The position numbers and the translations under genes are program-made. DNA of 64,000 nucleotides from Earliella scabrosa (Eukaryota; Basidiomycota; Agaricomycetes; Polyporales; Polyporaceae), in contig JABYQQ010000002.1 of NCBI GenBank assembly GCA_022605405.1, positions 1,798,001-1,862,000 of the forward strand, given 5' to 3'. Below the pieces are notes generated by a model. The model was not told where the DNA came from and searched no databases. It saw nothing but the letters and a program-made list of their open reading frames with translations. Shown here one piece after another: positions 36,830 through 59,683 of this stretch (position 1 is its first letter; each line of letters opens with the position of its first letter).

Positions 36830-38585
36830 CTACGCTACGACATGAGCGTTATCGCGCGAGGTCTCTGCATGACGAAGTTCCTCATAGACCCTTCGGAGAT
36901 CATCGTCGTCCTGAAACGGACCGGTCATAGTAGGACTTGCGCCCGGCGCCACGAAGCTCGGCCTGGACTCCAACTCTCGACGGTCGAGATATTCACCGCA
37001 GTTACCGGGGTCCACCCAGGAGAACGTACTTGACTGCCCGATCAGCTGCCGGTCGGCGCGGCGGAGATCAAGGATCAAGCGGCAGGTGAGGATCGCAGTC
37101 AAGCTGTAATCAGAGTCAGCTCACATTCTCTTGAAGGTTGGATGACCAGGACGATTGCACTCACATGTCGACGAAACGGGAGATGAATGCAGTCCGATCT
37201 GGTGAGATGATGGAGGGGTGCAAGACCTGATGTATCCGGTTAGATACAGCGCGACGATATACCCACCAAGTGAGATGAGTCAATTGACGCACTGAGCTAC
37301 TTGTGACCGCTATGTGCACGATGTTCACCGAGGAGAGCACCCTGGTACAAACTTATCAGTACGATGGATGATGCCGGGGGACTTGGTTGACTCACAGAAA
37401 GTAGATGGTACCTACGATTATGGCTCATTGAGTACACCACACCATTCATGAAAGAGGCGGAAAGACCTACCGTCATAGAGCAGTATACGAGTCAGGGAGA
37501 CCTTCATGTTCGCTTTGGGCAGCGACCTGTAAGTTGCATATGTTTTCCGCCACGTTACAGCGACAGCGATGAAGTCGGCGACAGCCAGAGCTCCGTGTGA
37601 CAACACGATCACTGAGAATACGCCAGAAGATTAGGGTCTAGAATGCCAAAATCAGACGTCTCGTACATCTGCGATTCGCGATGAGTGTCACAGGGAAGAG
37701 GGAGAGAAGAAATCGCGTACTGACATAACTGTGATCTGCGGCGACTGAATGAAGGGATAGTTGGTGCAATTGAAGGGAGGCGGGAGAACCTCGACTCGTC
37801 CAGGTGCTTGATTGACCTGGCATGTCGCACGATGTCAGTGCGTATGATTGTTGCTAGTACCTGTCCACTGTACCACGTACGAGTTCCGCCAAAGGGAGCA
37901 CCATCGCCAGCAGGAACGTAATGACAGCCAGCCGGAAGTTCCGCCCCGAGATAGCATAGACCCGGATCGTGGTGAACACTGGGAAGTAGGAGGAAACGAT
38001 GACGGTCAGGCCGAACGGCATTGTGTCACGCTCCTGCGACACACTCACAAGCTGCACTGCATTCCCCGACGAGTAAGAGAACGAGGACCACTCTTCCCAG
38101 TATTTGACAGCTGAGTATCGACAAATGAGAGGGGCCCAGAAGTGTCGTAAAGCGGGAGATCGGTAGTTACCTCTGTCCGTCACACAGTTCGGGCCTCGGT
38201 GCGGTCAAAGACAAATCAGAATATACACTCACCGTATTCGAGATAGGATTGAGGGTGGACAGCAGTAAGCCGAAATGTAGTATCCACCCATATCTGCTGA
38301 GCATATAGACCGTAGAGACTACGGTCAGTCTTCCCGAACCGCACCATATCAGAGCTATCTCGTCTTCTAGGGAGACTACCCATTCATATACGATCGTAGC
38401 TGCGTTGGCGCGCGATCGTCAGTGACTGTGATTGATGCAGAGTGTGGACTCACCCATGGTGACAAGACAGCAGTAGGCCAGTATGTAGCTATCACGGGCA
38501 GAGATCAGTACAGTGCCTATGGGAGCACGTCCAAAGGGACATACAGAGACTGCACGTCGGTAACTGTGTCAACAGGCGAGGCCAT
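36830..38585 (-). CDS. DUF6533 membrane protein a
   Basis: Thirteen exons: 38545-38585, 38454-38488, 38233-38399, 38171-38172, 38049-38110, 37881-37978, 37725-37816, 37667-37668, 37471-37611, 37396-37411, 37293-37341, 37165-37226 and 36830-37103. They give 346 residues. The fourth and eighth exons are only 2 nt (AG and AT), and the reading frame works only with them. Landmarks: YEWVVSLEDEIALIW (the DUF6533 hallmark), a conserved Ser-Cys-Gln after the first micro-exon, VYAISGRNFRLAVITFLLAM, PPPFNCTNYPF and HGALAVADFIAVAVTWRKTY, with about seven hydrophobic helices and a hydrophilic C-terminal tail. The function of DUF6533 proteins is unknown. Gene b is its closest relative. Confidence 0.88.
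37667..37668 (-). other. 2-nt micro-exon (AT), second of DUF6533 gene a
   Basis: Flanked by CAG on the left and GTACGA on the right in transcript sense. It completes an Ile codon and starts a Leu codon. Flanking introns are 56 and 55 nt. Confidence 0.8.
38171..38172 (-). other. 2-nt micro-exon (AG), first of DUF6533 gene a
   Basis: Context CAG|AG|GTAACT. It supplies the first two bases of a conserved Ser codon. Flanking introns are 60 nt each. Confidence 0.8.
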
Positions 38586-39585
38586 GGCGGAAATCCGGGG
38601 ATTGAAGAAGTCCAACGAACCGCAAACATGACGGCCCAATATAGGGTACTCACTGAACGCGCATATACTGAGAATGAGATCCGTTACACAACACCAATGG
38701 AGATCCCATTGCATGCGAGAATTTCAGCGCCACGCGCATGGGCCTTATCACCCCAGTAGAAGCCTCACGCTATACCACGTTGACGGTTGAAAGCCGCGCC
38801 TTGGACTTCTTGCAGGGAACAAGTCGTTCATATCATAGGGCTGTACGCGATAATCTCTCGGCGTATTCAGATGGCAGAGATACTCTGTAAGCTTAACATT
38901 CATCAGTTCGATACTGCTGTATACGATTCAAAGACTCGCCTCACAGCGTCCCGTCTAGTCTTGTTCGTGCTGTGCCTCACAGACAAAAGGCCGATACAGG
39001 AGCACGGCATCATGACGTAACGGTCGGTGCTCGGGGTCGAACTTCGTAGACCACCGATAAGTCAAGCATAGCATAGGATGTGCATCAGCAGTCCTCCGGA
39101 ATAACATGGCAGTACGGTTGGTGGCCTCAGGCGACTTGTCCAAGGCATTAGGACGAGCAGAGTTACAGTAGAGTTTGTGTGCGTGATTTGAGACTCTAGC
39201 CTGGCACTGGATGCGGAGAGGTTGATAGCAATAGTAAGTGTGGTGTCAGATGAATCACTGTCTGGGGACATGTATCTTTTGAGGAGTAGAAAGAATGAGA
39301 CATGCTAGGCAGGGTGTCACGAACGAAGGTCCCTCATTGCGGTGAACTTGAACCTCGCGTGGCCGGCCAACCGGCCCGGTACCCGGACGGACGCATTAGG
39401 CAGCTTAGACGCCCATGGTGAATTGGGACTCGATTGAACTTCGATGACAAACTCCCACACACATGCACTGCATGTCGGAGGTCTGTAGGGCGCGTAGGCC
39501 TATCGTGGGTAGTCCCACGATGTGACTATGTCACGTAGGACCGGCAATCTTATCTGTTTCCATGTCTGCCCAGGCGCGCTCACCT

Positions 39586-39610
39586 GACGTAGACACAGGC
39601 CGTGTCTACG
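39586..39610. repeat. Hairpin CGTAGACAC...GTGTCTACG
   Basis: Nine-base perfect inverted repeat with a 5-nt loop. The 15-mer GACGTAGACACAGGC recurs in the same orientation at 40006. Confidence 0.8.
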
Positions 39611-40005
39611 CCAAGTAGGTGCCTACCTAGCCTACCAATCTCCCAGGAGGCAGTTGTTGCGGGAGGAGCTATGTTACTCTCTTCCCTCACGTTGTTGTGG
39701 TGGTAGTTGGTCATGGAGGATAGGTAGAGCATGAGGAATGTGCCTCCGCATTTTTGGATATATTCATCTCCAATTGACTCCCCCAGGGGCTCATAGCTCC
39801 TGTGCCTCTAATTGGGCACACATTTCGAAGTCAATAGATTATTGTGGGACCCTTTTGACACTGGAGACTCATTGGTATTGCTATACGGAGTCTATGCAAA
39901 GCATCCCGAGAGCTGAAAGGTCCATGGGTGCCAGAGAACGTGCTTTCTGCATAACCTCTCCCCGGGGGGAGGGGGGCGTCTATGTCTGACCATGCCCTGT
40001 AGACG

Positions 40006-40032
40006 GACGTAGACACAGGCAATGTCTACGTC
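40006..40032. repeat. Hairpin GACGTAGACA...TGTCTACGTC
   Basis: Ten-base perfect inverted repeat, second copy of the 15-mer found at 39586, about 420 bp away. Confidence 0.8.
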
Positions 40033-40780
40033 GCATAGATCAGATGGTCTCTTATCTCTGTCTAGCTGATTCCATTGTGCGGGGACCTCGCTACGACAAC
40101 AAGCGTCTATGTGACGTGGCACGTGTGTCTACGTGTGTCTAGGGTGCGGGGAACCGGCTAGGCAAGACCGACCTACGAACCTCCGACATGCAGTGATGGT
40201 AGCTTTCGGCCTGTTGCCTCTACAGACTTTTACTTATGCACCACACGGTGCATGTCGCGTGGCGTTCCATCACATAGGAAATGTTGGTGCGCCATGCTGT
40301 CCGATCTCGATGGAGCCCAGGCGCTGGACCAAGCCGAGAGCTGATTGGACGGCCGAGGTCGTCGGCTCAGTCGCGCCGCCGTCGTCGTCGCTGCCCTCAT
40401 CGATGCGCTCGTCCCCCTTCTCGCCGTACTCAGCTCCCGGAGGATCTGCGTCGACTGCTTCCGCCGACTCACGCGCACCAATGGACACCGCTCGCGGCGA
40501 GAACGTTGGCTTTTTGGCTCAAACGCGCGCTCAGGACTGGGCCGGGCCGCCGGGGGAACGTTCGTGAAGCACGCAGGACGATGAGCCGATAAGTCACCCG
40601 CCATATGCAGGCCATATGCTCCCCGGGTTCTGCCCATGCAGCGCAGAACTTAGAGCGGCCATGCCCAGGCTGCCGTCGACTCACGTCGGAGCCAGTGCCT
40701 GGAGTCCGGCAGACGGCGGCGGCGGCATAAAAGACCCTTCCCCGATCCTCTAGACCCAGTTTTCGCCCCAGACTGCTACC

Positions 40781-43278
40781 ATGACCTCCCCCAACGGTCT
40801 CATCTGCTTCACAAACTGCCTGCTGCCTCAGGAGGACGGCGCACTCGTCGAGAAGGACCTCTGGATCGACGAGCGTCGCGGTGTCGTCCTCGACTCTCAG
40901 CGCACCTTCTTCCTCCGCAAGGAGAGACCAGATCGGGTCATCGACCTCGGCGGGAACATCCTCAGGTGAGTGTTCGTCCTTTGCGAGGCAGTTTTGTGGT
41001 CCAACGACCGGGATGTAGCCCTGGATTCCTCGACATCCAGATCAACGGAGCCTACAACTTCGATTTCTCGGTTTATGAAGGCGACGACGAGACCTACAGG
41101 AACGGTCTCCATCGCGTTGCGGAGAAGATAGTTGAGACGGGTGTCACCTCGTAAGTTCAAATCCACTATACGCACAACTCTTCAACTGACACTTCGGTGC
41201 GGAGGCTCCTGCCTACGATCATCGTAAGTGTCCAGTCTACAAGTTCACGCCCAAGGCTCTATTTTTCGAGAGCACATTCCCACCGGACGTCTGTGACGTG
41301 CGTAGGGGTGCACCTGCGTCCCGTACTATGCTTCCAAGGGTGCGTATCCTTGGCTTTATCGCCCTGTCGGTCGTTGGAGACGCGCTCGCTCGCACAGAAT
41401 GCTCAGCATATGTGTATGCATTCCCTTCACCCCCTTGTGGGTTGAGCGGGGTGCATGCACGTCAGATTCTGTTCTTGACCGTGGATACGTCCTTCCTTCA
41501 CTCGGGTTTGTTCATGGGCGTCGGGAGCGCATATATGCGCTCCATGTCCTATGGTATCAATGCGTATATGCACTTCGTCGACTCCGTATCCGTCTGACGG
41601 GTGTACTATGGCTAGCCCGCGGCGATGTAAATCTGGGAGCTCGCAGTTGCAGTCCCATACTGCGTGACTGTTACCACTGTTCTCGTTCTCGGTTGCCTGA
41701 GTGCGTATTTTCCCATGTAATTCACTGTTGTGGTCAGCGTACACTTCGTTCTTGCACAGCTGTTCGGCTGTCTGCATCATAGACGTACTATTACCGAGGT
41801 TCGCCCATATGCGGTCATGGCCATCTTAAACGCCCTGCACGCCCATAATTCGTTTATGTTTCAGCGCATATCTAGTGGCGTCCACGGGTGACGGGTGGAT
41901 ATACGCATCCGGATCCCATTCCTCTGCTGTCGCGTTTGCTGCTTAGTGTCGAATACGCTTACTGACCCACTTGTATTGGCACACAGACCCAGGAACGTTC
42001 GCTCTATCCGAAGCTTCTCCACCTCCTTCGCCCTTGGAGTTCTCAGACCTCGGCCACTCTGCTAGGCTGGCACGCCGAGGGCCCCTTCATCCAGTTCGCA
42101 AAGCGTGGCGCCCACGAGCCCCAGTTTCTCCTCTCCGCGAAGGAGGAGATCAAGTCCTTCGAGGAGGTTTACGGCGCGGACAATCTCGCCGTCACGGAGG
42201 ACTGGCTCATGGGTGGCGAGGCCCACGACGAGTCCGTCGGGGTTCGGGTGATCACCGCCGCCCCGGAAGTCGACGGTGTCATGGCGTCCATCGACGAGCT
42301 GACCCGTCGCGGCGTCGTCTTCTCGATCGGACACAGGTCAGCTGCGTCCAGCGTGATTTGAAGGTTCTGTCACTGACGGAATGATGCCGGCGACAGTATT
42401 GCTTCCACCGGTCTCGCGACTGCTGCCGTGCAGAGCGGCGCACGCCTGATCACCCACCTCTTCAACGCTATGCCCCAGCTGCACCACCGCGACCCCTCTA
42501 TCATCGGCCTACTCGGCGCCTCTCCCCACCTCTCCTCCCCCTCTTCCCCGCCGACGTCACCGACGTCTCCCGCCTTCAAGGTCTCGTCGCTGCACCGTGT
42601 TCCATCGGTGGTCAAGCGTGCGGCAGCTGCTCAGGGCCCCCAGGCCACGTCCGAGGCGTTCGACGACGTCCAGACGCCGCCGCAGACCCCGGTCCTGCGC
42701 GCGCAGACGGACCTTGAGGAGCTCCACCTGACGAAGGGCAAGGTCGCTGACCTGTCGTTCGAGCGGCCGTTCTACGAGATGATCGTCGACGGCATCCACT
42801 CGCACCCGAACTCCGTCCGGGTAAGTATCCACCGTCTCACATGCCCATTCTACACCAGACGCTGATTCGCGCGCACGGCCAGCTCGCGTACTCGTCGTAC
42901 CCCGACGGCTGCGTGCTCATCACAGACGCGATGAAGATCCTCGACCCGAACCTCAAGGACGGCGTGCACGAGTGGCGCGACGGCCGCAAGTTCGTCAAGA
43001 GCGGCGACAAGCTCTACCTCGAGGGCACGGACACGCTCGCCGGCTCCGTCGTCACCCTCGACAAGTGCGTCCGCAACTTCTCGCGCTTCACCGGGTGCTC
43101 GCTCGGCGAGGCGATCAAGTGCGCGACGTATAACCCGGCGAAGTGTCTCGGCATCGAGCACAAGAAGGGCACGCTCCGTCCTGGGGCGGACGCGGATCTT
43201 GTCGTGTTGGATCGCAAGGGCAAGGTCCTGAGCACTTGGGTGCGCGGGCGCGAGGTGTGGACGAAGCCCGCCAACTGA
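40781..43278 (+). CDS. nagA: N-acetylglucosamine-6-phosphate deacetylase
   Basis: Exons 40781-40965, 41019-41150, 41205-41223, 41987-42336, 42397-42820 and 42883-43278, all in phase, give 501 residues. The enzyme removes acetate from GlcNAc-6-phosphate in chitin-sugar catabolism, in the cytosol. Metal and substrate motifs in order: [62 protein letters not shown] and [15 protein letters not shown]. Two oddities: the third intron is 763 nt although the others are 50-62 nt, and about 75 Ser/Pro/Thr-rich residues (from [19 protein letters not shown] to [14 protein letters not shown]) separate IIGLLGA from FYEMIVDG. For the last intron the acceptor at 42882 is preferred; using 42858 would give a 38-nt intron and eight extra residues. 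Confidence 0.93.
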
Positions 43279-43677
43279 GCCCTTGCTTGATCTCGTCGTG
43301 CTTGGGCCCTTGAGTCTTGGTTCCTGAGTATGCGGACGCCTTGGGAGGCGTCGCGAATGTATGTTATCAGCAGCTTTACACACATGATGGAACGCAATCC
43401 ACGGACGTGGTTTGCACGCGTGTTTAGATAGAAGGCAATAGACTGACCGGTATTCATTACGTGGTCCGTATCGTACCGTAACAGACGGCAGCGGCAGCAT
43501 CAGCAATACAAATCGACTCTCCAGTCCGCGCTTTCCTTCTTTCTGAACTTCTTCTGCACGAGAACCCCCCGAAAATACATGATGCCGTCTAGTGATGCTC
43601 AAAGCAAGAACCCGTGCAACTGCTCGTACATCCCCCAGAATAGATAGAGAAAAGATCATCGTGCGTGCGGCCGTCGA
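43279..43677. other. Convergent intergenic spacer
   Basis: The 3' ends of the deacetylase and NMNAT genes face each other; nothing else recognised. Confidence 0.5.
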
Positions 43678-45670
43678 CTAGCACGCCGCCGAGGACGTCG
43701 ACGCCTCCTTCTCCTTGCCCTTCTCGCGCTCGGCCAGCACCGCGCCCACGGCCGAGCTCGCGTTCGGGCCGTCGTCCATGTACAGCCCGTGCTGCTCAAT
43801 GTAATCCACGACGGGCGCAGGGAGCAGGTATCGGACGCTCAGCCCGCGGCGGAGGAACAGCCGGACCTTGGTCGACGACACGTCGTTCTGGACGAGCTGG
43901 TGGATGAGGTGGATGTTGTGGCGCCAGCGCGAGAGGCTGTCGATCGCCTGGTCCATGTCCGCGCCCGCGCGCTCGATGATCAGCACCCCGTACCGCCCGA
44001 GGATGTGGTCGAGGTCGGGCTCGGACCATACTCCCGGCTCGGACATGGTCGCGATGAGGTCCGAGCCGGCGAGGAGCATGATCCGCGCGGGCTTCTTCGA
44101 CGCGCCCTCCTCGGCGCCGGTCGCGATCCCGCCGAGGCGCGTGTTGATCTCGTGCTCGAAGTGGTCGAGCACGACGGCCGTGCGCTGGTAGGACTGGAAC
44201 GCCTCCCAGGGGTCGACCATCAGCCATTGTGATGTCTGCTCCGCCGCGAGGTTGCACATGTTTACCCTGCAGATTGCCATGGGTTAGCGACAGGAACGAG
44301 AGACAGCATTGGTAAGAAGAAGGGTATTGACGAAATCTCTGCCGAAGTCGACCATCTTATGTCTCGTAGCATCTGTCCTGTTCGCGTCTGACAACCTCTT
44401 ATACCGTCGGAGCAGCCCCTGGGTCCCTTGCAGGACCGCAACACAGGATGTCCAAGACAACAACCCACGGAGTAGCCTTCAAGAACCTCACCGCACTGTC
44501 GAACGTGCCTGGAGAGACAGTCTCGGCATTGTGAGTGACGCACAAGCGATCCAATCCCACCGCACGAGTCTCGCCATTGGTTGACCTCAGCAACCGAGTT
44601 GCGATATACAAATCGCACGTCGATTGGTCAAGGGCTTCATCACAGCATGCGCGCTACGCCTCTGCGGCCAATGTGGGTCTGACAGACACCAATCGCCGTC
44701 GACGAAGTATGATCCGGAATGTGTGTGGGCATCCGCTGATGCGACGGAGACAAGTGATACCCCCATCCAGGAGAACCATGTACGTGTTACGAGAGTTATC
44801 CTGACAGCAGGGTAACATTCGCGTGCGACTGTGGGCCTGATACCAGCTCATGGGGGTCATGAGATGGAATTGCAGGACCACAACCCGGCGGGTGCAGAGG
44901 CAAAATGTCAGGGACAACGTGAAGGCACGACCGATGTCAGATTTCAAGAACCAGTGAACGTCCATGGGACCAACACGGAAGCTGGCATAGGCCAGAACTA
45001 CAGCAACCACTGCGTCATGGGATGCGAGGTCGCCTCGATTAGCCTGAGCTTACTGTGTAGCGCGGCAAGCTCAGGTTATTCCAGGGCTGTGGCGGACGAG
45101 ACGCCTTGAGGCAGTGGCGCTCCGTAGGCTCCGCAATGACTTGCAAGAGCAGCGTCGACATCTCAAGGAATCGCAAAGAACTGCTGCAAGAACACTCTCC
45201 ACCGAACGAGAGAGGCGGACCGGCTCATCGGCTCCGCAGGAGTTGCTCACGTGACCTGAGAATGAAGAGCAAAGCTTCGCTCCCAGTCGGCAAGAGGCAG
45301 CACGGCAATCGACGTGACGAGCGCACAACGACGAGAAGGGACACATATATGCAAGCGAGAGAAGGAGGACTTACCGGTGGTGTGCGCTGAGAAGCCCAGG
45401 CTTCTTGTACTGGTCGCTGACTGGGCTAAGGTAGCCGCCGACGATCTCGAAGTCGGTGTTTTGGCGGACGTAGTCCTTGGCCATCTCGAACATGCGCAGG
45501 TGGAGGTAGGTGACGGGGCTGAAGGAGCCGCAGGCGACGAGGACGACGGGCTGCTTCTCGGGGTTGCGGAGCACGCGCGACAGGCGGTGGGTCGGGAAGG
45601 AGTAGTTTGGCGGGTTCGTGAACTCGGCCGTCGGTGGGGGCGGTGAGGGGTGCATGGTTGCTGCCGACAT
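43678..45670 (-). CDS. NMA1: Nicotinamide mononucleotide adenylyltransferase (NMNAT)
   Basis: Exons 45375-45670 and 43678-44266, joined in phase 2 over a 1108-nt intron, give 294 residues. NMNAT joins NMN (or NaMN) to AMP, the final shared step of NAD synthesis. Family motifs: ACGSFSPVTYLHLRMFEMA (nucleotide-binding GxFxPxTxxH), GGYLSPVSDQYKKPGL, SAHHR continuing across the intron into VNMCNLA, SWLMVDPWEA, MLLAGSDLIATM and VSSTKVRLFLRRG (the ISSTxxR motif). The order and length match eukaryotic NMNATs. The splice is exact, since H-H-R-V-x-M-C is the family consensus, so the long intron is genuine. A Met at 44280 could start only a truncated protein without the nucleotide site. Confidence 0.93.
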
Positions 45671-46877
45671 GGGCGAATGTGGGCTGGTCGAGTCGACCGC
45701 GAGGGTTGGGGCGGATGGGGGAGGATGAGTGGCTGAGGCTGGGTCTGAGGCTGAGGAGATAAATCATATCAGACTTGTGCGGAATATGGACACTCGAGTC
45801 ATCCGTTCCCACGCTGCGGCAGTCGACATGTCCGACCGGCGCATACTCCCGACGTCGTCAGCGACAGCGGCGGGCATCACCATCGTCGCAATGGACGATG
45901 CAGGCGAGGGTGGGGATGGAGACAGGGATGGAGACGAGCGAAGGGGGACGGCGAGTCGTTTGCACGAGTCCATTGATTTTGAAGACGCGTGTCATTGTCG
46001 GCGCTCGCCTCTCGCTGTCAGACTCGACGTTAACAATCTGATAAGCAGGTCGAAGTATAGAAGTATAGAAGACAACCACAGCCGAGAGGAAGCAAGGCTG
46101 CTGCTACAGCCTGGCTACAGCGGTGGCATGCCGAAGTAATAGTATTGTGTTCAGCGCTGAACGAATCCACAGCATGTACCCGGCACGGCAGCTAATCGTG
46201 CCCCATTCACCCAGTAGCCAACCGCTCCATCTTTGAAAGAACGGAGCTCGCACATGGTCGCATCTACTTACGGCAAGCACCTGGCTGTAGATCAGTGCGT
46301 TTCCGATCCAGGGCCATCCCACATCGACCGGAGGTTCTGCACGATTTTGGGCAGCGTTCAACGCTGCCAGTACTTATGGATTCTACGGCCGTTCCCCAGA
46401 CGCGACTATTTGCTTCGGTCATCCTAGTACAAGCTCAGGTTCAGATGACGTTCTTCGTAGACAGACGGCTACAGCTGGCTACCGTAGTACTCATGCCAGC
46501 TTGGATTTGAGTTGTATCTCCTGATACTTCTCCGATGTACTACGTGCTTTTCTTGGACTGTCCACTAGAAACAAATTTGTACATCACTTCAGCATGATCT
46601 GTAATCCGACGTCTGGTTACGAGACCACATCTAATGATGAACGTTAACCCATGTACTGGAACTTGACAGGACTTCAACTGGAGCTTGCTTGAAGTTGGGG
46701 TCCGGCTATGATCGGCCCGCGCGCCCGGAGGGGTGACCATGTCACAAACACGTTTTTCTGTGACTTTAATGTCACGCGACGCGGGCCGTGGCTCGCGACT
46801 TCCAACTGTGAGCTCTAACCACCACCACACACCGTGTATACTTCTGTTTCATCCACTGTCCCACGCGACATCTCACC
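45671..46877. other. Divergent intergenic, nothing recognised
   Basis: Lies between divergently transcribed NMNAT and the KEN-box gene and should hold both promoters. No supported gene. Confidence 0.4.
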
Positions 46878-49521: not shown

Positions 49522-50318
49522 CTGGCGTCGACGCTGGTGGAGCCAGGATCCAGGATTTCTTGTGTCTTGGGTGAATGTTGGTATCGGTTGGTGTTCGTTC
49601 CTTCTTGGTTGATGTTCCCTATTTTCTTCGCTGTGTATTCCCCATCTTTTTCGCTGTGTATTTCCCATTCTGCCCGCCCCTCCCCCCTCTGTCCCTTGCT
49701 TCTTCCTCATCTGTATCCCTCGAGACCAACTCTCTACTACTCATTCTCCCTCTTTGCACTATCCCTTATGACTATGCTAATGTCCGATGTCTCATCGACT
49801 CGTTGTTCTCTGTAGGTATATCCCCGTTTCGCGAGCAGCAGCTTGAATATGCTTGTATGTAGCAATATCTCACCCCACGCTCCCCATCGTTATGTCATGG
49901 ACCTTCGCTCGTATCGCCTCTGTTCTTGTTCTGTGAGGCAGAGCCGCGTAGTGCGATCCGAGGTGAGCCGATAATCGTCTGTCGGCGATAATGAACTGAT
50001 GAATGTTCAGCTCAGGGGAAATGACCTGCTATCTGAATGCGCCGAGGAGGTGCTGCGTACAGTCCTGTGGAGATGAACGAGATGTTCCCTGCAAGAACGC
50101 GAGCGCACGGCCTTCTGCTGTCAATGTGGTATGGGATCAAGCCTCTTCTGGGGTGATAAGCGTGTTGCGCGTGGCGCCGACATACTCGGATGCAATGGGA
50201 TCTCCATTGGTGTTGTGTAGCGGATCTCATGCTCACTATGGGCGCGCCCAGTGAGTACCATATATTTTGGCACCATGTCTGCAGTTGTTCGAACCCTATC
50301 ACTCCCCGGAATATCCCC
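49522..50318. other. Intergenic, nothing recognised
   Basis: A pyrimidine-rich tract (about 49600-49760) after the KEN-box gene; the rest is the 5' region of DUF6533 gene b. The DNA before gene b (about 50190-50260) resembles that before gene a. Confidence 0.4.
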
Positions 50319-52053
50319 ATGGACTCGCCTGCGGACCTAGTGATTCACGTGCAGTCTATGTACGTCCTCCAGGGCCCGTGACGTCATGTGTATACTGACA
50401 TCGCATTGGACTCTGTCCGTGATAGATACATACTGGTCTACTGTTTCCTGGCCATCATCGGTGAGTCCATTCCAGCTTCGTTGAATGCCGCCACTGACGA
50501 TTGCACGCAACCCAGCTATTGTCATCTATGAATGGCTAGCCTCGCTAGAAGACGAGATAGATCTTATATGGTGTGGGTGTGGTCGGGGAGGACTGAGCAT
50601 AGTCTCGACGCTTTACATCCTCAGCAGATATGCTTGGATACTGGATTTGGCCGTCACGTTGACCACTATCAACCCTGTCTCGTATACGGTGAGTGGATTC
50701 AAGTTTGTTTTTGACCGTCACGAGGGTCCGAACTGCGTGTTGCACAGAGGTAATATCCGATGTCCCGGCACGACTCTTCTGGATCCCTCTCATGGAGTGT
50801 TTCCTCAGCTGTCAAGTACTGGGTAGAGTGCTTCTCGTGCTCCTGATGATCGAAGAATGCAGTGCGGCTGGTGAGTGGCTTGCGCGAGCTTGACAGTGTC
50901 GTTCAGGTGGTTGACCCGTCCTACTTTCCAGTGTTTGCCGCTATTCGGGTCTATGCTATCTCCGGGAGGAATTTCTCGCTAGCCGTGATTACGTTGCTCC
51001 TGGCGATGGTGCTCCCTCTGGCGCAACTCGTACGTGATAGTTCACAGGTAACGATCATACACACTGACATCACGCGACATGCCAGGTTTATCAAGCACCG
51101 GAACGATTAGAAGTTCTCCCGCCTCCTTTCAACTGCACCAACCTTCCTTTCTTCCAATCGCCGCAAATCGTCATTACGTCAGTGCGCGGTTTGTCCTCTT
51201 CGCCCTCACCTGTGTCGCTGATCGTTTATGGCAGATGTACGAGCTTTTATTGCTGGCCTATCGGACCCTAATCATCTGTCATATCTTCAGTAATCATGCT
51301 GTCACACGGAGCCATGGCTATCGCCGATTTCATTGCCGTCGCTGTGACATGGCGGAAAACCTATGCCACTTATAGGTCGTTACCCCAAGCGAACATGAGG
51401 GTCTCCTTGGCGCGTGTGCTGCTTTATGACGGTAAGTAGTTCAGTCTCTTTCATAGATGATACGGCGTGTTGAACGACCCACATTCGGTAGGCACCGTTT
51501 ACTTTCTGTGGGTCAATTGAGTCCCCCAGGATGCTCCGTCATACTGACGGGTTCGTGCCAGAGTGCTCTTCTCCATGAATATCGTACACATGACGGTCAC
51601 AGGAATCTCAGTACGTTAATTTCCTTGACTCAGTCGGTGGGTTTACCGTCGGACCGTATCTAAACGGGTGCATCAGGTCTTGCGGCCCTCCATCATCGCA
51701 CCAGATCGGACTGCATTCATCTCCCGCTTTGTGGACATGTGAGTGGAAGCATCACAGCAGTCCAAACACTTGGAAGCCGAGCTGACTCCGACCACAGCTT
51801 GACTACGATCCTCACCTGCCGCTTCATCCTCGACCTCCGGCGCGCGGACCGCCAACTGATCGAGCAGTCAAGTACGTTCTCCTGGGTGGACCCCTGTAAC
51901 TGCGGTGAATATCTTGACTGTCGAGAGTTGGAGTCCATGCCGAGATTCGTGGCGCCGGTCGCCGGTCCTACTCTGTCCGATTCGTGCCAGGATGACGATG
52001 ATATGGTAGGCGTTTATAGCGAACGCCCCCACGACGAACCCCTCGCGCGATGA
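50319..52053 (+). CDS. DUF6533 membrane protein b
   Basis: Thirteen exons: 50319-50359, 50426-50460, 50516-50688, 50748-50749, 50809-50870, 50932-51029, 51086-51177, 51235-51236, 51291-51431, 51492-51507, 51562-51610, 51677-51738 and 51798-52053. They give 342 residues. The fourth exon (AG) and eighth exon (AT) are 2 nt long; skipping the first gives a stop within six codons. Landmarks: YEWLASLEDEIDLIW, Ser-Cys-Gln, IRVYAISGRNFSLAVITLLL, PPPFNCTNLPFF, HGAMAIADFIAVAVTWRKTY, FSMNIVHMTV and a soluble tail (FILDLRRADRQLIEQSS). Closest to gene a, including the C-terminal tail. A multi-pass membrane protein of unknown function. Confidence 0.88.
50748..50749 (+). other. 2-nt micro-exon (AG), first of DUF6533 gene b
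   Basis: Context CACAG|AG|GTAATA. It supplies the first two bases of the conserved Ser codon; flanking introns are 59 and 59 nt. Confidence 0.8.
51235..51236 (+). other. 2-nt micro-exon (AT), second of DUF6533 gene b
   Basis: Context GGCAG|AT|GTACGA. It completes a Thr codon and starts a Leu codon. The 54-nt downstream intron has a CCCTAATC branch-point-like motif. Confidence 0.8.
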
Positions 52054-52950
52054 GGCTGATGCTGTGGTGTAGCATGGGGACAATAGAACGAACTACTAGC
52101 ATGCTCTGCAGCAGGCGGTGCACTGTGCGACGAGAGGTACCACCTCCAGCAAAGCTGCACACTATACGTAAGTATACGGTGACATTATCTGAACGGGATC
52201 TCAAGGACTGTGTATTTTTTATTCCGTATGTTTCATATTACAGAGCTAGAGACCTTGCGGCAACCACTGTACCTTCGAGTATGTACTCTCAGAGGTAAGA
52301 TGACTCTCGAAACGAACTGAGAGAGAACGTTGGCGAGCCCGTAACAGCTCATAGATAGATCGAGTCGTAGATGACCTTCAAGTTGTCGTTGAGTTGCGGA
52401 GACATTGATCGAAGCACTAGTACCGTCGGTGTGTCTCAAGAGCAACTAATCAGAAACAATTGGCTTCGTATATGTTGTGTCAGCAGGAGAGTTCTTCGGG
52501 CGGCTAAGCCCCCCCGTCGCGGCACCGCCGCCCTCTCATAGTGACACTATCAACGGCGGCCTCGGAGCCGTCATCCCGACATACTGAGGACCATCAGTGC
52601 AGAACGGAAATATTATAGGCTTTAAACATACGACTTCAACACTGTGACTATAGAGACGTATGGACCACATACGAGCTGCACCTCTCAGAAGCACGATAGA
52701 AGGCTCAGTGTTGACAGTCCTCTAGACTCGAGGTCCTCATGAGTAATCGTCCCGTCTGGTAGTCAATGTTTCTGCGCTTGAATGCCGATCGGGATATTAC
52801 CGAACATGGCAAGAGAAGCGCGTTTTGTGGCTCATTGCGAGTTCTTGGGACGGAGAGCCCGAGCTGCAGTGTTTTGTGAGCTCGGGGAGGCGACTGGAAG
52901 CCCGAGTACGTCGGCCACGGACGGTGTCCCGTTCTGAAGACATGACAGCA
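52054..52950. other. Intergenic, nothing recognised
   Basis: No supported gene or repeat. Confidence 0.4.
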
Positions 52951-52957
52951 TATATAA
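52951..52957 (+). promoter_or_regulatory. TATA box of the YCII-domain gene
   Basis: TATATAA, 95 bp before the start codon at 53046. Confidence 0.6.
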
Positions 52958-53045
52958 GGCCGTGGTCAGACACGTCGAAGGTACTCAGCCACCTACCCAT
53001 CTTCTCATCTACCACCTTCCCAATCCACCCCTGAAGAGCATCACC

Positions 53046-53614
53046 ATGACTTTGAAGTACAACTATTTCCTCGTGAACGCACCCGACCAGCCAAACAGCC
53101 AGCGGGCAAAACATGGAGCTGAGCACCTGCAACAGAATGCACCCCTCGCTCAGAGCGGATACGTTGGTAGGTACTCATCATCCTCTGGCCGCATGACAGT
53201 CGTGCTTTGCCGAGTTCACACTCGAGTCGGCAGCGAGGACAACGTCCGCGCCTACTGCTCCAAGTTCCCATGGCTTCGGAAACCGAATGGCTGACGTACC
53301 TTTCTCTTTGTACTTGCAGTCGTCGGCGGAGCACTCCTCCCCACTGGTGCCGTCTCCTCCGATGCGGATGCGCTTGCCAAACTTGTGGGATCGGTGATCA
53401 TCGTGAAAGCGGAATCCGTTGACCATGTATGGGAGACGTTGAAGAAGGACGTGTTCTACACTTCGGGAGAGGTGGTGAGTGCTTTTGTCTGGTTTCCAAG
53501 ATGCCTATGCTGACCAGATCATGCTCTTCGCCCTGGTATGTTATGGGACTGCAGTGGGACAACACGAAGATTACGGTCACGCCCGTGTACATTGGAGTTC
53601 CGCAGGTCGAGTGA
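53046..53614 (+). CDS. YCII-domain protein
   Basis: Exons 53046-53166, 53320-53474 and 53555-53614, in phase, give 111 residues. The protein opens with YNYFLVNAPDQPNSQR, then GGALLPTGAVSSDADALAK, VIIVKAESVDHVWETLKKD and VWDNTKITVTPVYIG. This is the ferredoxin-like YCII/DGPF fold (YciI family), seen in small soluble proteins proposed to act as enzymes or ligand-binding units of unspecified substrate. It covers a whole YCII domain and little else, and has no signal peptide. The 153-nt first intron is longer than its neighbours. Confidence 0.85.
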
Positions 53615-54708
53615 GCGACCGTGTCAGCAACGACCTGGGAGGGGAGTTATGTGTACAAATTGTAGCTGCACGCACTCAGACTTTCGTATGCATTGACGAA
53701 CCGTTTGACTCGTTCGGAGATTCATGATGAGTGCCCCAAGAGAAAGTTTTGTCAGCGTCTAGATCGCTTAAGTAACTCACCTCGGCAACGGCCGTCAACG
53801 ACCCTCACTGCCGGCACATACTTACTAGACACCATACCTTGTTGCATTCATCGCGTCCTAGACTGTCGCGCCTGTTCAGATTGGAGATCCGGGAAGCCCG
53901 CTTGAAGGGATGCACAAGGGTATACACTTGAGTCTATCTACCCAGGCTTCGGCCGTTGCATTATTGTAAGTCCGGTGTAAGTCCTTATTCGCCGTGCGGC
54001 CAGTACCATTCGGACTTGATCTTTGTCCTGACGAGCTTATGGATTGTGCTCATCTTCACTCTCAGGTGATTTCAAGTCGTTGCAACTGTGGCCACTCCCA
54101 GAGTTTGTACAGCCTGATTGCTTACAGCCTCAGTGAGAAAGTCCTATCTAGACGCCAGCACCGCCAACGGACGCGCAAATCCTACAGGATGCAGGGAAGG
54201 TCTCCGACTGCACATGCAACATGACTTCCATCACACATGGACCCAACAATGGCAGTACTGCTCCATTCAAGAACATCTTCCTTCCGGATCCGGCATTGGT
54301 ACGTGGCGAACCACCGGTGGCCCGGGAGCGTCCAAAGCGGCCTTTGGTTCGCGGTCCACCGGACTACCCGCGCACATAGGGCCCTGGAGGCTGCATGAGA
54401 CTCCGAACATGCAGAAAAACTGCGGTACGCCTCCAATTTTTCTGTCAGTATGCATGAACGACTTCGCAACGCAGGTGGTTCCACTGATGATGAAAGCATA
54501 TCTAAGTTCACGGATATGAAAGGCTTCTCTGGTCTCTGTCGCCATTCATCCACAGCTGAATGTCAGAATAGGAACAGCCTGATTAAAAATCCATTTCCGC
54601 TTCATGGTTTTTCTTAGTGCCTTCCTCCCAGTATAATAAGCCACGACGCCTAAGCACACTTCAGCAACTCGGGTCCATCTCTCCACTCACATACCTCTCG
54701 GTCTCACC
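53615..54708. other. Intergenic, nothing recognised
   Basis: A TATA-like GTATAATAAG at 54631-54640 precedes DUF6533 gene c by about 70 bp. No other supported feature. Confidence 0.4.
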
Positions 54709-56655
54709 ATGTTCACCGGCACTGACGTGCATGTTTCGGACATTGCCTCACTGTGAGCCCTATCTCCTTCGATTGTAGGAGTACCGTCGCCGAGCTCATC
54801 CCTACTAGCTATCGAGGGTCATGCTGCGCCATCGCCGTCCTATGTAAGATGGCCATTCCAATCCACGTCCCCACTTGCACTGACACGCGCTGCTTTTGAA
54901 TAGCTTTTCTTGTCTATGACTGCATACTGTCCTTCCCAGAAGAGCTGTCATTGATATGGCTCTCGGAAAGCAGACGGACAATCGCTTCCTTCGTCTATTT
55001 CTTCATTCGCTATATCCCGATTCTCGACGGACTTATTTGTGTGACCACAATATACCCCCTTCCGTTGCTGGTGCGTCTCCCTGATACGTGTGCACGATAT
55101 GATGACGCTGACAGCACGTACTCACACTCCGCAGAGGTACTTCCCGTTACATAGCCATTGCTGCATTGGAAGACTCTAACGATCAATCCTAGCTGTCAAA
55201 CCATCACCTGGATCCATCGATTCCTGCCTGCAGTGCAGGAGTTGGCCGCTTCAAGTAAGTCACTGCCACGAGGTCTCCTGATAGTATTCCTGACGCAACA
55301 CCACAGCTTTCGCGACACTGCGAATATACGCTGTCTCGGATAGAAAGCGCTGGGTTGCTGCCATCGCATTTCTTCTTCTTCTCGTCCCTCCATCTATGGC
55401 TCTCGTAAGAGTAACACCACTACTTCCTCCCTCCGTGTGCTAATCGCCCCGCGTCGTAGATATGTGATATTAGCCTGGTCGACATCAAATATCTCCCCGA
55501 TCCCTTGGATTGTATCATGATCGTTCAGTCAAACGACTTGTTCGTGAGGTAAGCACTCCATATACCTCGATGTGCGTAACGCGATTCTAACTATGACGTC
55601 CTGAACATAGGCGTAAGTATCATCTTCCTCGCATGTCAGTCACAATCAATAACATTGCATCCAGTATCCATGATCTCCCGTGGCTGCTCCATTGCAGCAG
55701 ACCTCCTCGTCGCTGGCGTTACCTGGTTGAACGCCTACAAGGAACACAAGTTTCAGAAAGGTCTCAAGCTCCAGAACTCCATGCGCGATGTCATCCTTTA
55801 CGATGGTGAGCACTCCGGATGGACCCTCTTAATGAGTGCTGACACTGCCTTCAGGTAGTCTCTACTTCGTGTGCGTACCGTGAACAAATATTCAACAGAA
55901 CATGCATCTGAATACTAGGAACGTAGTATTCTCGCTATGCTCAACGTCATGCAGATCATATTTCTCAGGTTGAGAGTGAGTTCGATTTTTCATAAACATG
56001 GTTCCATTCATTCGGCGACTTCCTCTTACGCCCATCCCTGTCAGCTGAGGGACCCCTTCGTGATCACGAGCGACGTCACGCTCTTTACCACCCCGTACGT
56101 TTGCCATCAGCTTTCTTGGCTTCTGAGTCTTACTCCTGAACACGGGCTGGCAGGATCGCCTCTATTCTCGTGTCGCACTTCCTACTCGACCTCCGCCGTC
56201 TCAAGCACGCCCCGCACGCCCAAACACACCCCTCATTCATCAACTCCAACATCGCACACCTCAGCATGCCTATGCCGACCCTCGCAGATTGGAACGACAC
56301 CCGCCCCTCCTTTGTTGCATCCTTTAGTGGACCTGTGTACCCGGCTCCTTTCGATTTCGTCGACCCGGAGGACGAGCAGGATGCGAACGATGCTCTTCAA
56401 ACTCGGGCAGAGTATGCGTCCCACGCGGATATGTGTAACACGAGCGTAGTAGGGGACTCCAGCTCCTCGAACACGCTCCAGGAAAAGGGAGAGTCGATCC
56501 CCGGCGGACAGTGCCACAGCGACTATGACGGGATTACGACTGCGACGAACGTTAGCTGCTCTTCTTCCGAATTAAGGTGTTCCTTGATCTCAGTAGAAGC
56601 TTCCACACGGATTAGCACGGAGGTGTATATTTGCGGTGCGGATGTCATAGATTAG
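54709..56655 (+). CDS. DUF6533 membrane protein c
   Basis: Thirteen exons: 54709-54752, 54809-54843, 54904-55070, 55135-55136, 55193-55254, 55307-55404, 55460-55548, 55611-55612, 55665-55805, 55855-55870, 55927-55975, 56045-56094 and 56154-56655. They give 418 residues. Micro-exons are AG (fourth) and GC (eighth). Landmarks: VYDCILSFPEELSLIW, Ser-Cys-Gln, ATLRIYAVSDRKRWVAAIAF, LDCIMIVQSNDLFV, SIAADLLVAGVTW and AMLNVMQIIF. The soluble C-terminal tail is the longest of the four (about 165 residues; VDPEDEQDANDALQT and a Ser-rich end). Closest relative is gene d, 3 kb downstream in the same orientation. Function unknown. Confidence 0.88.
55135..55136 (+). other. 2-nt micro-exon (AG), first of DUF6533 gene c
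   Basis: Context CCGCAG|AG|GTACTT. Flanking introns are 64 and 56 nt; it makes the conserved Ser codon with the next exon. Confidence 0.8.
55611..55612 (+). other. 2-nt micro-exon (GC), second of DUF6533 gene c
   Basis: Context ACATAG|GC|GTAAGT. It completes an Arg codon and starts a Leu codon. Flanking introns are 62 and 52 nt. Confidence 0.8.
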
Positions 56656-56675
56656 ATACACCATAGGAGGTCTTA

Positions 56676-56821
56676 GGGCCTGTTCGGTAAAAAGATATGG
56701 GGAAAAGTAGGCCTACTTTCTGCCTTATATGGTATCCCCGGGACACGGATTTTATTTTTGCATACCATATAAGGCAGAAAGTAGGCCTACTTTTCCCCAT
56801 ATCTTTTTACCGAACAGGCCC
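56676..56821. mobile_element. 146-bp MITE, PIF/Harbinger (Tourist)-like
   Basis: Terminal inverted repeats of 60 bp (56676-56735 and 56762-56821) are perfect reverse complements around a 26-nt centre. The ends begin GGGCCTGTTCGG. The element is flanked by TTA on both sides (56673-56675 and 56822-56824), a 3-bp target duplication. TTA duplications and this terminus are typical of PIF/Harbinger-derived Tourist MITEs. It has no coding capacity and sits 20 bp after the stop codon of DUF6533 gene c, so its hairpin probably lies in that gene's 3' UTR. Perfect repeats imply recent insertion. Confidence 0.85.
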
Positions 56822-56824
56822 TTA

Positions 56825-57894
56825 GCCTTTCTTGCTAGTATTACTACGGTCAGCTTTTTCCGCTGAGGCGAGGGCGTCTAGATTACCAAATGGAGACTGA
56901 GCGACGCTCGGCAATGTCCGGGACACCTTAACTCTGGACCACCGCCATCCACAGCACCGACATCGGTGGTATGCCATCACGACACCGTTCTCTAATTTGT
57001 CATGTTATTTATACGCTTTTGCACTGCTTGAGCTGCGTGATAGGCCTAGGCGACACCACGACCACGATGCTCGGAACTTCAGACGGCCCCACTTGACTTC
57101 AAGTTCATGTCCAGGTATCAGGGAGCACTGATAGGTACACAGGTACGTTCATCGTGTCTCGGCTGATTGCCGCTAACTAATTGAAACTACTTTATAAGGA
57201 AGCTCACTTCGTGCTACATCCGAGCGAGATGCCAGAATAACAGACGGAGTCTGAAGGCAGTGTCGATCGACGGCACTCTCGGAGCCCGAGGCGTTGGTTC
57301 CACAGGACCAGCAGCATGTGGACACAGAAGCATGATTTACATCTGCTTTGACACAGACATGCAAGGGTCTCCGCCTGTGCCGAAACCCAAACATCGAGTC
57401 TGTTCCTGTACCCTCGAACGTTCCCACACGGGCACTGCAGGCACTAATCACGAAGCTCCATCCAGAATCCAGATGTGACCTGCGATAGCGTTATTCGATG
57501 ACTCCAACTACCTCTCGTCACGAACTCACCTCACACCAAGGCGATATGTGGGTGTCTCTTCCAACGACGAGCGCACCATATGGTGAGGAGGTACTTAACT
57601 GTAATCAGGGTTCAGGAGTGGCCGCGACCTTCTATCACTGTCATGGACAATCTGCAGTGCGCTGAGGTCCATTCTACGTTGCTTCTGAGAAGATCCGGAT
57701 GCTATCACCGGTCACCATACACCTGTCTAACTATCTGGAGTGGCAAGCCGGTTTATGACAATATCATATTCCTCCATTCGTGACGGCAGACGCAGTCCTG
57801 TTCCAGCTATATAGGTGCGACTGGATGAGCACCTCATACGGCTCATCAAGCCTACACTAGTACGGCGACCCCCTCCAAACACCTCTCTCCGATC
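56825..57894. other. Intergenic, nothing recognised
   Basis: A TATA-like CTATATAGG near 57807 lies about 88 bp before DUF6533 gene d. No supported gene. Confidence 0.4.
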
Positions 57895-59683
57895 ATGTTC
57901 AACCCATCTGAAGTCCACGCTGCCGAGTTGGAGTCCCTGTGAAGTTATCCTCCATCGTGTGTCTTTGAAATACAGCTCATAGTGGCGTCTTTCAGCTATC
58001 GAGGGGCATGCTGCGCTGTCGCGGCGCTCTGTGAGTAGAGCTGTTGTGTATGCGTGAGCATCAACCGATACTATCATTATTTGCAGCTTTCCTCCTCTAC
58101 GACTGGATGGCCTCGCTACCGGACGAGCTCACCCTGATCTGGTTTTCTGAGAATAGGCGCACCATCTGCTCGTTGGTCTACTTCCTCACACGCTACACAC
58201 CCATAATGGATGGAGTCATCTGTATCCTCACCATTAACGACCTCTCATGGCTGGTACGTAACTCCCACACATCAAAGGGCATCGGGTGTCGACTGACGGT
58301 CTCTTACAGAGGTATCATCGTGCCAAATTATATCAATAGAATCGTGTAGAACTGACCTCGCATACCTACTCGCAGTTGTCAAAGCATCACCTGGATGCAC
58401 AGACTCCTTCCTGTACTGCAGGAGTTCGCTTCGTCGAGTGAGTAGTACATATCAACCTCCTCCGAGCACGCACCAACTACGATGTCGTATTACAGCCTTT
58501 GCCACACTGCGGATTTATGCTATCTCGGACAGGAATCGCACCATCGCCGCGGTTGCCTTTCTACTTCTGCTAGTCCCTCCCTCGATGGCCCTGGTAAGTG
58601 AGCTGGAGCTTTGCCTCTTCGGAACTTCATAACTAGTGAGCACTCATGCAATCACTGCAGATCTATGAAATAAGCATGGTCGAAATCAGGCACCTCCCTG
58701 CCCCTTTGAACTGCATTTTGTTCGTCACATCGAGCGACCTCTTCGTAAAGTAGGTGCTTCCTTCCCCACATACATATACATGTATGTCTGACTCGGACTG
58801 ACTGCCATTGTTCCAGACGTGAGCACCATATACACTCACGGACGGCGTGACCGAATAACTCGTGTTGACCCACTTCGTTTCCCCACTAGTGGCGACGACG
58901 TCCCGATGCTGCGCAATCGCCGCAGACCTACTTGTTGCCGGAGTCACCTTCTGGAACGCATACCAGGAGCGCATGATGCACCAAGATCTGAAGTTCAGAA
59001 GCTCGATGCGGAATGTCATCTTCTACGATGGTGAGTGATCATAATTTGCTAATCCTAGTTCTGCGCGTCTGACATTTGCACGCAGGCAGCCTCTACTTCG
59101 TGTAAGCCGTGAACACTCATGCCGCCACAGACCGAGCTCATGCCAGTCTACGATTGCAGAGTTCTCGCCATACTCAACGTCCTGCAGATCGTCTTCTACC
59201 ACATCAGGGTGAGAGCCGCACCAGTTCGTTCAGCGTTCTATATCACAGCTAACTTCGCATCAGCTAAAATCCCCCTTCGTGATCACAGCCGACATCACCC
59301 TCTTCGCCAATCCGTGAGTACCTCCTCACCAGTGGACATGCTGTTGCTCAATGATACCACCCGTTCCATGCAGAATTGCGTCCATCCTAGTCTCGCACTT
59401 CCTTCTCAACCTCCGTCGTGTCAACCACCGCTCGCCCACACAGACGACGCCGTCCTTCGTTAACTCGCAGCTCGCGATGCCCATGCCCGCGCTCGCCGAG
59501 ATCCGAACGATGCCCTCCTTTGTCGCGTCGTTCAGAGGGCCAGTATGCTCAGCATCTGATCACCCCGACTCGGACGAGGATTCGGAGGGTGAAAGTCGAC
59601 GATCAGGAGAGAGTACGCTGCATGAGCGCGACGAGGTCGGAGTATGCGCAAGCAACCCCGGCAGCGACACCTGGTCGAGGTGA
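57895..59683 (+). CDS. DUF6533 membrane protein d
   Basis: Thirteen exons: 57895-57938, 57996-58030, 58087-58253, 58310-58311, 58376-58437, 58496-58593, 58661-58749, 58817-58818, 58890-59030, 59086-59101, 59160-59208, 59264-59313 and 59374-59683. They give 354 residues. Micro-exons are AG (fourth) and AC (eighth). Exon lengths equal those of gene c at every internal exon. Landmarks: LYDWMASLPDELTLIW, Ser-Cys-Gln, ATLRIYAISDRNRTIAAVAF, LNCILFVTSSDLFV, AIAADLLVAGVTFWNAY, AILNVLQIVFYH and VSHFLLNLRRVNH, then an acidic tail (DHPDSDEDSEGESR). It is a tandem duplicate of gene c; function unknown. Confidence 0.88.
58310..58311 (+). other. 2-nt micro-exon (AG), first of DUF6533 gene d
   Basis: Context TTACAG|AG|GTATCA. 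Flanking introns are 56 and 64 nt; it makes the conserved Ser codon (AGT) with the next exon. Confidence 0.8.
58817..58818 (+). other. 2-nt micro-exon (AC), second of DUF6533 gene d
   Basis: Context TTCCAG|AC|GTGAGC. It completes a Lys codon and starts a Leu codon. Flanking introns are 67 and 71 nt. Confidence 0.8.

Follow-up and report, generated by a model that had tools for sequence, protein, structure and literature searches.

Paired 2-nucleotide exons predicted in the DUF6533 genes of the polypore Earliella scabrosa

Four genes for DUF6533 proteins (A–D), located in a stretch of 64,000 nucleotides (nt) on contig C2 of the wood-rotting polypore Earliella scabrosa (genome 51.7 Mb; this whole stretch is called the window below), very probably each contain two real exons of only 2 nt, the fourth and the eighth of thirteen, which would be constitutively included while their flanking introns are removed sequentially. 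We modelled the four genes by hand from the genomic DNA and, with both 2-nt exons in place, obtained for each of them one open frame with a single terminal stop (346, 342, 418 and 354 amino acids (aa) for A, B, C and D, respectively). Omission of exon 4, of exon 8 or of both led to a premature stop in all four genes, bearing out the frame need that a preliminary description of this DNA had put forward. Furthermore, a survey of the genome supports that such paired exons, as predicted from sequence, extend to most of the 43 DUF6533 loci examined, divergent copies included. In the following, site 1 and site 2 are the places of exon 4 and exon 8, a gap is the stretch between the neighbouring longer exons, and slashes mark exon borders.

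36830..38585, minus strand: gene A, DUF6533 protein; 13 exons, 346 aa; Pfam PF20151, E-value 1.5e-7
50319..52053, plus strand: gene B, DUF6533 protein; 13 exons, 342 aa; model residues 1-216 identical to the deposited partial protein P0127
54709..56655, plus strand: gene C, DUF6533 protein; 13 exons, 418 aa
57895..59683, plus strand: gene D, DUF6533 protein; 13 exons, 354 aa
38171..38172, minus strand: gene A exon 4, 2 nt (AG); ggacag/AG/gtaact; introns 60 + 60 nt
37667..37668, minus strand: gene A exon 8, 2 nt (AT); tcgcag/AT/gtacga; introns 56 + 55 nt
50748..50749, plus strand: gene B exon 4, 2 nt (AG); gcacag/AG/gtaata; introns 59 + 59 nt
51235..51236, plus strand: gene B exon 8, 2 nt (AT); tggcag/AT/gtacga; introns 57 + 54 nt
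55135..55136, plus strand: gene C exon 4, 2 nt (AG); ccgcag/AG/gtactt; introns 64 + 56 nt
55611..55612, plus strand: gene C exon 8, 2 nt (GC); acatag/GC/gtaagt; introns 62 + 52 nt
58310..58311, plus strand: gene D exon 4, 2 nt (AG); ttacag/AG/gtatca; introns 56 + 64 nt
58817..58818, plus strand: gene D exon 8, 2 nt (AC); ttccag/AC/gtgagc; introns 67 + 71 nt
Gene B, predicted exon 3-4-5 joint: ...TCGTATACG-AG-CTGTCAAGTA...
Gene B, predicted exon 7-8-9 joint: ...GTCATTAC-AT-TAATCATGCT...

All eight 2-nt exons lie at the positions first claimed for them, and the sixteen introns around them measure 52–71 nt with GT...YAG ends, as had been described. Only the start of gene C exon 11 was corrected, to 55927, after GAACGTAG. 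Exons 2, 5, 6, 9, 10 and 11 are equal in length across A–D (35, 62, 98, 141, 16 and 49 nt, respectively), and exons 3, 7 and 12 show length differences of one to four codons. The eight exons had also been called independent, which does not hold, as A–D share their gene-family inheritance (A and B are 76% identical); four annotated polypore relatives of gene D show an identity of 48–52%. All four proteins score above the PF20151 cut-off of 24.1 bits (A 31.9, B 39.1, the first 324 residues of C 51.5, D 49.4).

Exon 10 (51492–51507 in B, for example) is with 16 nt in A–D itself a microexon, and it is found with this length at the same place in nearly all paralogue models. Gene E (L077, C2:1864105 onward) adjoins the cluster just beyond the end of the window; both of its exons in question are 2 nt (AG and GT), and its frame is open from exon 3 through exon 9.

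Occurrence of the 2-nt exons in the gene family

At least 150 PF20151 matches were scored in the genome, a lower bound as just 150 of the 233 candidates were scored; many of them lie on C2, C4 and C5, amounting to a large family expansion. From these genes we read 46 loci, namely A–D, E and F (retrieved when D and B served as queries), the top 30 PF20151 matches, which were picked regardless of splicing (L009–L038), four loci picked for their resemblance to B (L079–L082) and six picked for long open frames, as possible intron losses (L083–L088). L036, whose model is the same as that of L035, as well as L020 and L022, whose models end before the sites or miss one of them, were left out before counting, leaving 43 loci. 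A splice-aware profile alignment was written for the survey, with a per-intron cost that was later lowered, and doubtful loci were judged by eye.

Of the 43 loci, 35 were read with a 2-nt exon at site 1 and 33 with one at site 2. The 35 dinucleotides at site 1 are mostly AG (24), followed by GG (6), AC (2) and one each of CT, GA and GC, and the residue preceding the conserved Cys is Ser in 23 cases, Gly in six, Thr in two and another one in four. Site 2 is more varied, with 13 different dinucleotides among its 33 exons, giving Leu (17), Phe (8) and others. Both sites pooled yield 68 curated 2-nt exons with 15 different dinucleotides, in proteins whose median pairwise identity among 27 models is 33% (5–95% range: 24–49%). 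Relatives with fewer introns or a longer exon keep the two bases as well: in L015 the second intron of site 1 is lost and the sequence reads cag/AGCTGC, which leaves the two bases in frame; in L011 the first one is lost, with the joint shifted by one base and the two bases again kept in frame; and in L080 the two bases of site 2 stand on the upstream exon, followed by a single intron of normal length. L029 and L088 share a 5-nt exon at site 1, TCAAG, which corresponds to 2 nt plus one codon.

In order to estimate how often such an arrangement arises by chance, we defined a parse as [CTA]AG/NN/GT with two introns of at least 45 nt and shuffled the gap interiors preserving dinucleotides. Shuffling left a parse in 6.5% of the site-1 gaps and in 4.6% of the site-2 gaps, against 23/24 and 26/26 of the real ones, which agrees with the earlier statement that exons in register are hard to obtain by chance; these 24 and 26 gaps had been curated for having a parse, the figures for all loci being 35/43 and 33/43. 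With a strict donor, GTRNG, the shuffled gaps fell to 0.65% and 0.42%, compared with 12/24 and 25/26 real gaps. A profile left blank at the joints returned 320 internal exons in 33 loci, of which 46 were 5 nt or shorter; 44 of these coincided with positions that had been curated up to that point, and the remaining two lay likewise at site 1 (L029, L030). This blank-joint alignment failed at site 1 of L010, L017, L018, L024, L031, L032, L034 and L035 and at site 2 of E and L031. The full profile placed the 2-nt exon in 17/19 (site 1) and 18/19 (site 2) real loci, compared with 15/152 and 18/152 runs on shuffled gaps. Permitting short exons raised the score in 32 of 33 loci, slightly in some (L010 by 0.6, L030 by 2.8, L029 by 3.0), and forbidding exons below 6 nt cost A–D 33–57 score units for both exons together.

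The motif YAGAGGTA was also tried as a signal by itself and rejected: it matches the genome 1163 times on the forward and 1183 times on the reverse strand, less often than the reversed pattern (2428 and 2435). As the motif is uninformative alone, the argument stands on register and frame.

Splice signals and deposited proteins

Median intron length is 57.5 nt for the 100 introns next to the 50 exons curated first, versus 58 nt for 259 other introns of these models, only 10 of which reach 100 nt or more; the whole gaps span 104–140 nt for these 50 exons and up to 169 nt in the later locus L083. A branch-like motif, CTRAY, is present in 31 of 50 introns before (62%) and 26 of 50 introns after the 2-nt exon (52%), compared with 110 of 243 other introns (45%) and about 20% of shuffles, and the looser YTNAY occurs in 96% and 90% of the introns before and after, respectively. 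For all 68 exons the first donor is GT in 66 cases and GC in two, and the acceptor is CAG or TAG in 64 cases before and 62 cases after the exon. The donor after the 2-nt exon carries G at +5 in 44/44 cases when the dinucleotide is other than AG and in 15/24 when it is AG (Fisher p=2.7e-5). In pairing with U1 there is a trade-off between an exonic AG and +5G of the donor, and judging by the balance seen here, the GT that follows the two bases is probably maintained as a donor.

Deposited proteins were compared as protein sequences alone. The partial protein of gene B, P0127, is identical to our model over residues 1–216 (216/216) and passes through both 2-nt exons with the joints VSYTSCQVL (exon 4) and QIVITLIMLS (exon 8); past residue 216 it runs into the intron after exon 9. 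Both joints are likewise exact in P0012 (L085), as is the site-2 joint of P0060 (L035). Of the proteins from further polypore species, P0002 has preserved both sites, P0003 has preserved the first one, P0001 the second one and P0004 neither. Four lgn proteins (P0055, P0072, P0083 and P0091), which come from contigs of 1.3–1.7 kb with uninterrupted frames of 300–346 aa, are probably transcripts; site 2 is intact in all four, and the residue ahead of the site-1 Cys is Ala, Gly or Ser in each of them, with a gap-free window in three. The sites lie outside the coverage of a fifth lgn protein, P0110. In 126 annotated proteins a nine-column window agreed in 72 of 105 covered sequences at site 1 and in 63 of 110 at site 2, an agreement that is not specific, since agreement is lower still at several further loop columns and the expected residues are sometimes lacking from an intact window.

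It had been expected that gene predictors miss such exons, but this is not always so, as both joints are present in the deposited protein of gene B; 9 of 14 comparable locus-site pairs disagree with our models. The 2-nt exons are a possible reason why database entries for DUF6533 frequently disagree at both places, and they offer annotators a simple check.

Weighing the possible readings of the gaps

In the mechanism that we propose, exon 4 would provide the first two bases of the codon, mostly for Ser or Gly, preceding the conserved Cys at the start of predicted transmembrane helix 3, and exon 8 would complete one codon with its first base and begin the following one, mostly for Leu or Phe, with its second, in predicted helix 5. 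Introns of fungi are short, and their recognition takes place across the intron. Each flanking intron would be complete, with a length of about 57 nt and a donor, a branch site and an acceptor of its own, and would be recognised via intron definition. As splicing factors could not sit on an acceptor and a donor two bases apart at the same time, the introns would have to be removed one after another, so that the two bases join one neighbouring exon first and then the other. Both exons may already have been present in the ancestor of the examined genes and may have been retained because either intron can go cleanly, while skipping the two bases breaks the frame. Recursive splicing had been called an equivalent reading, and this is only partly so: sequential removal of the two introns is compatible with it and likely, but a zero-nucleotide ratchet would lose the two bases and thereby break the frame.

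Several observations weigh against two 2-nt exons per gene. All 43 loci belong to one genome, eight of the 68 exons were curated by eye alone (site 1 of L010, L017, L018, L031, L035 and L087; site 2 of E and L031), and at site 1 of L024, L032 and L034 placement succeeded with the full profile and failed with the blank-joint one. The Cys codon that follows site 1 in 35/35 cases is partly a matter of construction, because Cys was used in locating the site. A curated 2-nt exon is missing at site 1 of L009, L030, L038 and L079, of the fused L011 and L015 and of L029 and L088 with their 5 nt, and at site 2 of L012, L014, L025, L029, L030, L079, L086 and L088 and of the fused L033 and L080. The fusion in L033 is less clear than the others, as the two bases seem to stand on the downstream exon but its one intron at site 2 measures 109 nt, so that the loss is not clean. 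Among the signals, the strict donor is satisfied in only half of the site-1 gaps (12/24), the first intron at site 2 of L024 and L031 starts with GC (GCAAGT and GCGAGT), and L016 has a GAG acceptor. The first gap of gene B (120 nt) is a multiple of three without an in-frame stop and could be kept whole, and an 8-nt exon gives an alternative open parse at site 1 of gene D. Of the 14 comparable locus-site pairs of E. scabrosa, including the two of gene B, five agree with the models and nine disagree; P0128, the deposited protein of gene A, reads VMLIV instead of VILIV at exon 8, P0060 reads LTQAVCETY at site 1, which fits a donor two bases further on, and P0007, P0019, P0020 and P0021 likewise solve a gap differently from the 2-nt model.

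These proteins and the 8-nt parse of gene D would fit a gap that is one intron of about 120 nt, with the frame kept by shifted sites, such as a GC donor within GTGC, or by extension of one neighbouring exon. A first donor of the form GTGC, where the frame is kept by a GC donor two bases downstream, is indeed present in 13 of 68 gaps (8/35 at site 1, 5/33 at site 2), and with exons below 6 nt forbidden the alignment chose an exon longer by two bases in C, E, F, L021 and L023 at site 1 and in F, L017, L026 and L034 at site 2. Nevertheless we consider this explanation improbable, as the GTGC solution is absent in 55 of the 68 gaps, including site 1 of A, B and D and site 2 of A–D, the forced solutions near exons 3–5 are different for each gene (A 187+44, B 173+73, C 169+62, D 171+10+53) at the score loss given above, and the gap, about twice as long as a normal intron, contains one more acceptor, one more donor and one more branch-like motif, all in register. 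Still less probable is a gap that is wholly removed as a stwintron or through a zero-nucleotide recursive point, the two bases not being exonic. Stwintrons are known from fungi (described in passages of PMC9024468), and site 1 with YAG/AG/GTA has AG right before GT, the form of a ratchet point; but loss of the two bases truncates all four proteins, the relatives that lost an intron retain the two bases as coding, and AG is found in 0 of 33 dinucleotides at site 2, which therefore offers no AG/GT ratchet.

Decay of the gene copies, with accidental parses in the remaining ones, would suit L009, where a run of G takes the place of the expected exon at site 1 and the locus looks damaged. Against the full-length frames of A–D, the exons in 35/43 and 33/43 loci, a chance parse of 4.6–6.5% per gap and the deposited protein of gene B, the likelihood of this explanation is close to nil. 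The exons might also be real but regulated in their inclusion, with skipping leading to a frameshifted and presumably degraded mRNA, so that inclusion would switch these receptor-like genes on or off. In A–D the protein is cut short by skipping, and a microexon switch has been reported in Trichoderma (in passages of PMC11121469), but protein coding alone accounts for the conservation, and we regard such a switch as rather unlikely. Only a little easier to accept, and unlikely as well, would be the generalisation that all DUF6533 genes of mushroom-forming fungi (about 150 or more copies here) carry the two ancestral 2-nt exons, giving a few hundred in this one genome, with sequential splicing acting as a shared checkpoint for protein output.

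Protein context, known systems and neighbouring features

P0012 was modelled by AlphaFold with seven long helices (mean predicted local distance difference test score, pLDDT, 80), and the 50 best rows of this model in a comparison with the PDB are G-protein-coupled receptors (GPCRs), although these matches are weak (E-values 1.7e-4 to 6e-3, three of them at or below 0.001; template modelling (TM) scores 0.29–0.54). The residues at the two sites are 83, at the start of predicted helix 3, and 164–165, in predicted helix 5. The Cys after the first 2-nt exon (Cys84 in P0012) is invariant in 34 aligned proteins, and Cys151, which belongs to a predicted loop hairpin ahead of helix 5, is conserved in at least 90% of them; this arrangement presumably matches the layout of the disulphide between helix 3 and loop 2 of GPCRs. 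With the site residues in predicted helices 3 and 5 and the first of them adjoining an invariant Cys, a splicing error would be costly. Seven helices, as predicted for the member analysed here, have also been reported for the DUF6533 protein SNB1 of mushroom-forming fungi (passages of PMC10949477), and one DUF6533 passage in each of the two papers found to carry the name makes no mention of exons.

One of the closest counterparts that we found is the 1-nt exon of CYP621A in Fusarium, described in passages of Nelson and Syed 2026 (PMC12940212). As in the DUF6533 genes there is a phase clash and a gap of more than twice a normal intron, the tiny exon stands between AG and GT, a relative lacking the introns serves as length marker, and most deposited models are wrong at the joint. 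In contrast, the Fusarium exon is 1 nt long, occurs at one place in the orthologues of one P450 subfamily, with the same candidate exon (AGGGT) in all of them, and has been confirmed by RNA reads, whereas the exons described here have 2 nt, occupy two places per gene in dozens of paralogues with 15 dinucleotides and are predicted from genomic sequence. The 1-nt microexons of plant APC11 and VPS55 (passages of PMC4674806 and PMC8831610) are also constitutive and ultra-short, with intronless copies that absorb the base, but there is one such exon per gene in few-copy genes, and they are experimentally confirmed; for APC11 of Arabidopsis, intron definition with sequential removal has been proposed (PMC4674806, likewise in a passage).

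Fungal stwintrons share with the gaps the two U2-type introns and a fixed order of removal, according to passages of PMC9024468, but the inner intron of a stwintron lies within a splicing element of the outer one. In the DUF6533 gaps the two bases retained as coding would be flanked by complete introns, each with its own donor and acceptor. Zero-nucleotide recursive sites (passages of PMC4674806) also combine adjoining acceptor and donor with sequential splicing, yet they retain nothing and are proposed for large introns, whereas in the DUF6533 genes the introns have about 57 nt and the frame requires that two bases are kept. The gaps do show sequence features of an ultra-short constitutive microexon, namely a tiny internal coding exon with complete introns, the frame need, and conservation or absorption in relatives. 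In the passages of the open-access literature among the matches listed, 1-nt exons are documented in plants, Fusarium and mitochondrial genes, and we found there no 2-nt exon in a basidiomycete and nothing on the splicing of DUF6533 genes. Thus, as far as our searches reach, the kind of ultra-short exon is known and a family-wide pair of 2-nt exons is new.

Exons of one or two bases probe the limits of splice-site recognition, and the described cases found so far are isolated. With 15 dinucleotides among 68 natural 2-nt exons, each at one of two fixed places, and with the relatives that lost introns or carry 5 nt, the genome provides a comparative series, which is suited for asking in which order the introns are removed and what the two bases contribute.

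Two further features were observed close to the DUF6533 genes. Just downstream of gene C lies an inverted repeat (56665–56735 and 56762–56832) with arms of 71 nt that are 94% complementary and 26 nt apart, which looks like a small foldback element. Between B and C a three-exon gene (53046–53614) encodes a protein of 111 aa (MTLKYNYFLVNAPDQ...), which may resemble YCII-like proteins.

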